Source of the DNA: Pyrococcus sp. ST04
GTDB lineage: Archaea > Methanobacteriota_B > Thermococci > Thermococcales > Thermococcaceae
Reading direction: 5' to 3'
Assembly (NCBI RefSeq): GCF_000263735.1
Contig: NC_017946.1
Span: 1,591,348 to 1,655,347 of the forward strand
DNA: 64,000 bases
Below are positions 26,557 to 35,686 of this stretch, one piece after another (position 1 is the stretch's first letter; every line of letters starts with the position of its first letter). The notes under the pieces were generated by a model. That model ran no database searches, had not been told where the DNA came from, and saw only the letters and a program-made list of their open reading frames with translations. Made by a program: the position numbers and the translations under genes.

Positions 26557-26629
26557 AACCATCACCATAAGAGCGTGAAAATAAAAATTTATGAGCATTT
26601 TTATGAAAGGAAATTCAGGGAGTCCCAAG

Positions 26630-27088
26630 ATGGATGTCAGGTTCATTGATGAAAGCGTTGCATTTTCAAGAATGCCATATGAAGATGAACTAGAAGAATT
26701 AGTCAAAGAATTTCAGGCATTTGTTGTTTTAGTAGAAGAGTTTGAGCTCGTTTATAATTTGGATGATCTGAGAGCAAGAGCAGACGTGCTACATGTTCCA
26801 ATCCCAGACTTCACGGCCCCAAGCTTGAAAGAGCTAACAACAATCGTCGAATGGATAGAAAGAAAAGTGAATGAAGGGAAGAAAGTTCTGATTCACTGCT
26901 ATGGCGGAAGCGGAAGAAGTGGAACAATAGCAGTCGCTTGGCTCATGTATAAGCATAGACTACCGCTAAAGGAAGCTTTAAGAAAAGTAAGAATCCTGAA
27001 GCCTAGTGCGGTTGAAACCGAAGAGCAAATGAACATTCTTATGGAATTTGAAAAGATAATAAGGGATGATGACTCTGGAGCCCCCTGA
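26630..27088 (+). CDS. Dual-specificity/tyrosine protein phosphatase
   Basis: 151 residues with the cysteine-phosphatase loop HCYGGSGRSG (Cys 90, Arg 96) and an upstream candidate general acid Asp 60 in PIPDF. Closest by memory to the small Thermococcus kodakarensis tyrosine phosphatase. An ATG at 26591 is in frame, but homology starts at MDVRFIDESVAFSR, so 26630 is preferred. The last six codons and the stop overlap a C/D guide RNA; the stop TGA is part of its D' box. Confidence 0.85.
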   Translation: MDVRFIDESVAFSRMPYEDELEELVKEFQAFVVLVEEFELVYNLDDLRARADVLHVPIPDFTAPSLKELTTIVEWIERKVNEGKKVLIHCYGGSGRSGTIAVAWLMYKHRLPLKEALRKVRILKPSAVETEEQMNILMEFEKIIRDDDSGAP

Positions 27089-27117
27089 GCTGTGATGACC
27101 AGTTCGCGGATCTGACC
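27064..27117 (+). ncRNA. Box C/D guide sRNA overlapping the phosphatase stop
   Basis: Box C ATGATGA (27066-27072), 12-base guide, D' CTGA (27085-27088), GCT, C' GTGATGA (27092-27098), 13-base guide, box D CTGA (27112-27115), with GG before C and CC after D able to pair. All four boxes are perfect and the spacing is that of archaeal sRNAs. It would direct 2'-O-methylation at the bases paired five positions upstream of D and D'. It overlaps the 3' end of the phosphatase gene on the same strand. Targets not determined. Confidence 0.85.
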
Positions 27118-27140
27118 GGTGAATCCTCATCTTCCGAAAA

Positions 27141-27150
27141 GTTTTTAAGT
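27141..27150 (+). promoter_or_regulatory. TATA box of the 5S rRNA gene
   Basis: GTTTTTAAGT is centred about 26 bases before the 5' end of the 5S rRNA, the expected archaeal distance. It likely drives 5S and tRNA-Asp together. Confidence 0.6.
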
Positions 27151-27171: not shown

Positions 27172-27297
27172 GGCACGGCGGCCATAGCGGGGGGGCTACA
27201 CCCGGTCTCATTTCGAACCCGGAAGTTAAGCCCCCCAGCGATCCCGGTTGTACTGCCCTCCGAGAGGGGGCGGGAAGCCGGGGACGCCGCCGGCCAC
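27172..27297 (+). rRNA. 5S ribosomal RNA
   Basis: About 125 bases with the archaeal 5S core GAACCCGGAAGTTAAGC (27215-27231) and terminal helix formed by CGGCGG near the 5' end and CCGCCG near the 3' end. No 16S or 23S gene is nearby; an isolated 5S followed by tRNA-Asp is the known Thermococcales arrangement. Ends are estimated from the terminal helix. Confidence 0.95.
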
Positions 27298-27303
27298 TAA
27301 AGC

Positions 27304-27381
27304 GCCCGGGTGGTGTAGCCCGGCCTATCATGCGGGACTGTCACTCCCGCGACCCGGGTTCAAATCCCGGCCCGGGCGCCA
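27304..27381 (+). tRNA. tRNA-Asp (GTC)
   Basis: Acceptor GCCCGGG (27304-27310) pairs with CCCGGGC (27371-27377); anticodon stem CGGGA/TCCCG encloses CTGTCAC with anticodon GTC; T-loop GGTTCAAATCC. The CCA end is encoded (27379-27381). No intron. Six bases after the 5S gene, so co-transcribed. Confidence 0.97.
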
Positions 27382-35057: not shown

Positions 35058-35104
35058 ATAGCAGGATAAAAACTTTGTCCTAATGCACTAAATAAAGGAT
35101 ATGA

Positions 35105-35157
35105 GAATGATGAACCCGCGCAGCTCTGATTGGTGATGAGGATCTTAAGTGCTGATT
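35105..35157 (+). ncRNA. Box C/D guide sRNA abutting hisB
   Basis: Box C ATGATGA (35107-35113), 12-base guide, D' CTGA (35126-35129), TTG, C' GTGATGA (35133-35139), 12-base guide, box D CTGA (35152-35155). All boxes match consensus and both guides have the standard 12-base length. The 3' end touches the stop codon of hisB on the opposite strand. The outer stem is weak. Presumed to bind L7Ae, Nop5 and fibrillarin and guide 2'-O-methylation; targets unknown. Confidence 0.75.
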
Positions 35158-35686
35158 ATAACACTCCCTTCGTGCTCTCTACCCTACTTTTTTCCCTAAT
35201 CGCCTGAGATAGGGCCCTTCCCAGTCCCTTAAAAGTTGCTTCAATGATATGGTGAGCATTTATTCCTGCAAGCTTCTTTACGTGGATAGTTGCCCTCAGA
35301 GATCTAGCCAATCCCCAAAGGAACTCCCTTAAGAGCGATACTTCAAATCCCTCCTCCCCCTCAACAATGTCCAGATCGAGATTTAGATAGGGCCTCCCCG
35401 ATATATCCACAGCAACAAGCACCAATGCATCGTCCATGGGCATTATGACAGTACCGAACCTTGAAAACATCTCTGGGAGATTTTTTCTGATCTCTTTCCC
35501 AAGGGTTATCCCCAGATCCTCCCAGAGGTGATGTCTGAGGTCGTAGCTAGCCCTAACCTCTGCATTTACTTCCATATAAAAGAACATTGCTTCAAGCATG
35601 TGGTCAAGAATCTTATCTCCCGTATTTATTTCCCCTTTCTTCCCTATTTCCACAACTATATCCGTCTCCTTGGTTTTCCTCCTCAA
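35156..35686 (-). CDS. hisB: Imidazoleglycerol-phosphate dehydratase
   Basis: Dehydratase only, without the phosphatase domain of enteric HisB. Metal-binding repeats are RHHLWEDLGITLG and GINAHHIIEATFKGLGRA. The ORF can be extended upstream, but homology starts at RRKTKETDI and TTG 35686 follows GGGGTGGTC; this gives 176 residues. A matching TTG-AGG start is seen in hisZ. Confidence 0.93.
   Translation of the reverse strand: MRRKTKETDIVVEIGKKGEINTGDKILDHMLEAMFFYMEVNAEVRASYDLRHHLWEDLGITLGKEIRKNLPEMFSRFGTVIMPMDDALVLVAVDISGRPYLNLDLDIVEGEEGFEVSLLREFLWGLARSLRATIHVKKLAGINAHHIIEATFKGLGRALSQAIREKSRVESTKGVL

Follow-up and report, generated by a model that had tools for sequence, protein, structure and literature searches.

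The window, the whole stretch of 64,000 nucleotides of Pyrococcus sp. ST04 that was analyzed, contains a C/D box guide RNA of the sR23 family placed between a protein phosphatase gene and the genes for 5S rRNA and tRNA-Asp. The features of this locus, together with a second C/D RNA of the window, are the following:

26630-27088, + strand: dual-specificity protein phosphatase gene (PF00782)
27064-27117, + strand: sR23 C/D box guide RNA (RF01138, cmscan, 69.7 bits)
27065-27085, + strand: final seven phosphatase codons (DDDSGAP), made of sR23 letters
27066-27072, + strand: C box ATGATGA (sequence, Rfam alignment)
27073-27084, + strand: D' guide CTCTGGAGCCCC, 12 nt, pairing with the tRNA-Trp anticodon arm
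27085-27088, + strand: D' box CTGA (sequence), including the phosphatase TGA at 27086-27088
27092-27098, + strand: C' box GTGATGA (sequence, Rfam alignment)
27099-27111, + strand: D guide CCAGTTCGCGGAT, 13 nt, with no convincing target
27112-27115, + strand: D box CTGA (sequence, Rfam alignment)
27134-27148, + strand: CCGAAAAGTTTTTAA, promoter-like motif ahead of 5S (BRE/TATA-like, our naming)
27174-27295, + strand: 5S rRNA (RF00001)
27304-27378, + strand: tRNA-Asp(GTC), downstream of 5S
35103-35158, + strand: second C/D RNA of the window (RF00095, 46.2 bits, cut-off 45)

The guide RNA was identified with cmscan as a match to positions 1-54 of the 54 of RF01138, scoring 69.7 bits (gathering score 45; E = 7.8e-15 for the whole window), far beyond chance. 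Its C, D', C' and D boxes stand in the correct order with spacers of guide size, and it agrees with the known sR23 over the full length, above the curated cut-off and in all boxes. No other sR23 match was found in the genome. Single-strand folding of the RNA was uninformative (z = 0.39). The phosphatase ORF belongs to DSPc (PF00782, E = 3.5e-19) and probably starts at the ATG at 26630, which matches the starts in the congeners better than the mechanical ORF start at 26591. Its 3' end reads GAT GAT GAC TCT GGA GCC CCC TGA, so that the protein ends in FEKIIR-DDDSGAP-stop; the stretch 27065-27088, which spans the seven last codons and the stop, is part of sR23, and the D' box contributes its TGA as the stop. 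The initial annotation had proposed that the phosphatase stop lies in the D' box of a C/D guide RNA and that this RNA begins within the last phosphatase codons, and both points are confirmed by the full-length Rfam match, by the boxes read from the sequence and by the position of these codons within 27064-27117.

Places of sR23 and of the phosphatase in the Thermococcales

The distribution of sR23 was analyzed in 94 genomes of Thermococcales, in which G000 is the window's own genome and the other G numbers are those of its relatives. A match with E<=0.001 was obtained in 90 of them, 83 above the cut-off, and in none of 14 control genomes. The 88 loci considered below are those of the 90 matching genomes minus G009 and G088 (weak match only); no full sR23 was found in G009, which is 77% complete. 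Secondary sR23 matches of 39-40 nt in G006, G009 and G087 were rejected, as a different C/D family is present there.

In 76 of the 88 loci a small gene encoding a coiled-coil protein of ~92 aa (L011 1556-1831 and homologues) starts within 40 nt downstream of sR23, at distances of 1-19 nt. No Pfam family was found for this gene above the cut-off. The usual order is sR23, the coiled-coil gene and then an alaS-type gene (PF01411 in G005), and the alaS-side flank of G005 is similar in seven other Pyrococcus loci. The 12 exceptions are G000, G007, G010, G029, G041, G058, G063, G067, G069, G076, G078 and G087. Among these, the coiled-coil gene lies 133-853 nt from sR23 in G029, G041, G067 and G069, and was not found at all in G058, G063, G078 and G087. 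Within Pyrococcus, sR23 occupies the usual place in G004, G005, G006, G008 and G011, and the coiled-coil gene is located away from sR23 in G000, G007 and G010. The coiled-coil and alaS genes are retained without sR23 in G007 and G010; in G000 the coiled-coil gene has different neighbours, at C1:921 kb and without sR23, which is found at 1618 kb. Since sR23 mostly stands before the coiled-coil gene, both in the order and in the genus, the usual place was taken as ancestral and that of the window as derived: there, sR23 follows the phosphatase and does not precede the coiled-coil gene. In G048 (L086) and G059 (L082) the D guide of sR23 consists of unrelated letters and the D' guide is unchanged.

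The phosphatase is near sR23 at only one of the 88 loci, that of the window (the flanks covered 767 nt or more upstream and 470 nt or more downstream), and the same 25 nt that include its last codons are identical in 20-25 of 25 letters in all 88. The proposal that the RNA dictates the last codons was thus supported. The idea that the arrangement itself is conserved had to be abandoned. The neighbours of the phosphatase were examined in 30 loci among the 78 genomes with a match, plus G011, and in G006, G008 and G011 the phosphatase stands directly before 5S with no sR23 between them. This result refutes a conserved overlap, not the RNA itself, and an old RNA gene that relocated in one lineage would be the better reading.

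The phosphatase tails of G006, G008 and G011 end in DTR-TGA, PKVF-TAA and VFK-TAG, respectively. In G011 the end is RKVFK-stop, with the codons CCGAAAAGTTTTTAAATAG, and in G008 it is APKVF-stop, with the codons CCGAAAGTTTTTTAA; both stretches can be read as the BRE/TATA of 5S (our naming). In these two genomes (L238 and L093), the letters of the promoter-like 5S motif are thus also those of the last phosphatase codons and the stop. In the window, CCGAAAAGTTTTTAA lies 16 nt beyond sR23, and the matching letters in G011 and G008 are the phosphatase end. The position of the motif therefore indicates that an older overlap, between the tail and the 5S promoter, was replaced by a newer one, between the tail and sR23. 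By hand count, the stretch with phosphatase, sR23 and 5S is ~64-69 nt longer than the phosphatase-5S stretch of G011 and G008. A metallophosphoesterase gene is located between phosphatase and 5S in G005 and G010, 5S is ~2.3 kb from the phosphatase in G007, and none is nearby in G004, so that the arrival of sR23 may have replaced something. In an unrooted rRNA tree of the eight genomes (FastTree), G000 groups with G005, G007 and G010, next to G011.

Other gene ends and the closure of reading frames

A third place was detected in G007 and G010, where sR23 immediately follows the end of iorB and is encoded on the opposite strand. The iorB gene is without sR23 in G000, G004, G005, G006, G008 and G011. 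In G000, G004 and G008, a convergent gene of 443-449 aa terminates inside the end of iorB, and in G006 and G011 a different convergent gene stops 1 and 40 nt from iorB, respectively; the closest convergent genes of G007 and G010 lie 623 and 275 nt away. The convergent neighbour has therefore changed as well, and this place does not correspond to a clean insertion, the neighbourhood having been altered too. In G005 (L228 2676-3553), a CRISPR array was observed ~0.56 kb beyond iorB.

The second C/D RNA of the window (35103-35158) ends on the stop of hisB, which is encoded on the opposite strand. This RNA changes place among the congeners as well: in G004, G006 and G008 an RNA with nearly the same guides follows the aspartate racemase gene, and the racemase stop is the C-box UGA in G006 and G008 and the D'-box UGA in G004. 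Only that of G008 (L093 2700-2755) reaches the Rfam cut-off, with 45.7 bits, and the other two (racemase ends of L092 and L095) were assigned by box and guide letters. The racemase is without this RNA in G000, G005, G007 and G010.

The reading frames closed by these RNAs were also analyzed. All three sense frames are shut by sR23 in 85 of 88 loci, or 56 of the 59 distinct sequences, compared with 10% of composition shuffles; none of the 88 has its three antisense frames all closed. Seven more C/D RNA sequences, of six kinds, also close the three sense frames, the total tested being eight; in sR60 and sR1, one frame is first closed in a guide and not in a box. An ORF that enters sR23 must therefore terminate within the RNA, and a stop carried by a box is less special than it appears, because the spacing of the boxes closes the frames once an ORF has entered.

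ORFs of at least 90 aa ending within sR23 were found at 8 of the 88 loci. Two of them, of 194 aa (G058) and 98 aa (G062), were judged by eye not to be genes. The remaining six are the window phosphatase, which stops in the D' box, and one gene of ~500 aa in the genus that we label g4 (L060, L065, L066, L068 and L069), whose stop belongs to the C' box in G074 and to the C box in the other four genomes (G075, G079, G082 and G084). This gene is weakly HEAT-like, below the cut-off, and its proteins in G074 and G082 are 52% identical. Three different boxes of one RNA family therefore act as gene stops.

Predicted guide target and expression of sR23

The D' guide of sR23 is nearly invariant across the Thermococcales. 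Against the anticodon arm of tRNA-Trp, with the exon ends assumed as usual, it forms a run of 9-11 Watson-Crick pairs in the eight Pyrococcus genomes (10 pairs in G000). The nucleotide targeted by a C/D guide is placed by the N+5 distance rule, and C32 of tRNA-Trp is opposite guide position -5, the fifth letter from the box, in all eight. The tRNA-Trp pattern occurs in 88 of the 94 genomes, and for each of these a match that ends in GGGCTCCAG is listed. By comparison with rRNA, the best shared score of the D' guide was 8.0 or less. From this complementarity, the D' guide probably directs 2'-O-methylation of C32 in tRNA-Trp, a position that is among the predicted C/D targets in P. furiosus according to part of a published account (PMC7668247). 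However, the same account reports that no Cm32 was detected in those tRNAs of P. furiosus that were analyzed, and the archaeal TrmJ is described as able to make Cm32 (PMC6313347, in part). The intron of archaeal pre-tRNA-Trp itself acts as a C/D guide, directed at positions 34 and 39, in the same partial source (PMC6313347); sR23 resembles it in being aimed at the tRNA-Trp anticodon arm, but differs in being a separate gene and in its predicted aim, C32.

No convincing target of the D guide was found in the 16S and 23S rRNA of the eight Pyrococcus genomes. Its best shared place, on GATCGCGGGCTG in 16S, scored 8.5 in six of the eight, is mispaired beside the box and is not claimed here. A pattern search with the D guide in its own genome gave six matches, one being sR23 and the other five being loci without tRNA. 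For the D' guide, a first candidate, GGGGCTCCAGA, corresponded to the reverse strand of sR23 itself and to one apparent protein-gene site, and was attributed to chance, as was a match of GGGGCTCCAG to the 3' end of tRNA-Thr.

Regarding expression, a promoter motif was learned from 85 other loci. The window locus scored 2.2 (rank 0.07), a value as good as which was reached by 31% of the shuffles. The test is weak: 66 of the 85 loci beat their own shuffles at 0.05, but not those of G004 and G005, where sR23 occupies the usual place. An sR23 without its own promoter in the window is only suggested by this score. In the available part of a review (PMC7994747), the box motifs are stated to suffice for the maturation of C/D RNAs, with changeable flanks, and ~20% of archaeal C/D genes to have a TATA-like motif, with an upstream stop codon carried by 25%. 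Given sufficient boxes and rare TATA-like motifs, co-transcription with the phosphatase followed by trimming would be the simplest route. Release of sR23 from the 3' end of the phosphatase mRNA, or transcription across it, is thus plausible, and the RNA would probably be produced as the 3' end of that transcript and trimmed to its protein-bound core. As a C/D box guide RNA, it would be expected to bind L7Ae, Nop5 and fibrillarin.

Origin of the overlap

The RNA of this locus is a genuine member of a known guide family, located at a place specific to this lineage and with a readable history. It is likely that sR23 relocated into the phosphatase-5S junction, where the RNA would supply the stop and the tail of the phosphatase, be trimmed from its mRNA and be aimed at C32. 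The starting state would have been an sR23 just upstream of the coiled-coil gene and a phosphatase whose tail overlapped the promoter motif of 5S. Upon moving into the junction in this lineage, the arriving RNA would have parted the phosphatase from its old C-terminal tail; the reading frame would then enter the RNA by 22 nt and halt at the UGA of D', which yields DDDSGAP as the new tail. The C, D' and C' boxes would close the three sense frames in turn. As to the route of such a movement, no traces of retroposition (target-site duplication, RNA-derived tail) were seen by eye in the flanks inspected.

A larger rearrangement, in which breakpoints beside sR23 joined it to the phosphatase side and the flanks were lost later, is unlikely, yet it retains some weight. 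The coiled-coil gene of G000 is parted from its usual neighbours too, its upstream flanks differ in G007 and G010, the gene between phosphatase and 5S in G005 and G010 points in the same direction, and the convergent neighbour at iorB in G007 and G010 was lost or displaced. Against it stand the window junction, longer than those of G011 and G008 by just the length counted above, and the flanks of the window sR23, neither of which resembles the usual place. It is very improbable that the window copy is a decaying, functionless remnant: its D guide differs from that of the congeners at the letters adjoining the D box, but the four boxes and the D' guide are intact in the sole sR23 of the genome, at 69.7 bits. 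An origin in place, by evolution of the phosphatase UGA into a D' box, follows the published general proposal for such overlaps (direction of Tripp et al., as given in part of the review PMC7994747) and the fact that UGA belongs to the C and D boxes, but it is the least probable of all and is already refuted at this locus, unless the usual place is younger than that of the window, by the same RNA with a near-invariant D' guide sitting elsewhere across the order and by the three congeners whose phosphatase-5S has no sR23 and whose tails end differently.

With relocation preferred, the arrangement of the window shares a stop borne by a box, and possibly the lack of a clear promoter of its own, with the archaeal C/D genes overlapping ORF 3' ends described in the same review (PMC7994747, in part). 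In that source, stop codons are proposed to speed the evolution of boxes (Tripp et al., 2017); unlike the direction proposed there, the RNA of the window would be older than the overlap. The review also states that the mobile features of archaeal C/D genes are yet to be discovered, and cites retroposed mammalian snoRNAs (Weber, 2006). Duplication and mobilization of guides were discussed by Dennis et al. (2015; PMC4644070, in part). Both the archaeal guides and the mammalian snoRNAs share with sR23 a guide gene at new places, but here a single-copy gene would have moved, the congener sites lack the RNA, and no sign of the route was found. The sR23 family and the overlap of box and stop as an arrangement are therefore known already. 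Gene mobility in Pyrobaculum has reportedly been treated by Lui and colleagues in 2018 as well, and guide mobility as such may not be new. What would be added here, as read from the sequences, is the direction (RNA first, overlap second), the relocation with empty sites and the frame argument.

If this relocation is true, the order of events would be readable from an old RNA, a new overlap and a stop given by a box. This locus would then be a clean example that speaks for relocation and against the published direction, of a type that is itself known. The box spacing that closes three sense frames would offer a simple reason for the commonness of such overlaps. More tentatively, and with somewhat less than even confidence, C/D genes of Pyrococcus may relocate in small units to gene 3' ends, acting as three-frame stop cassettes whose arrival is tolerated, with the host gene taking its stop and last residues from the RNA. 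In that case, the widely reported overlaps of box and stop would often record arrivals of RNAs and not the birth of boxes from stops.

Additionally, other C/D RNAs were observed at ORF ends. The end of an ORF adjoins the start of another C/D RNA in G006 (L089) and G009 (L088); judged by eye, the C-box TGA of the RNA in G006 serves as the ORF stop. In G000, sR28 (L172 335-389(-)) overlaps the end of a 114-aa ORF on the opposite strand.
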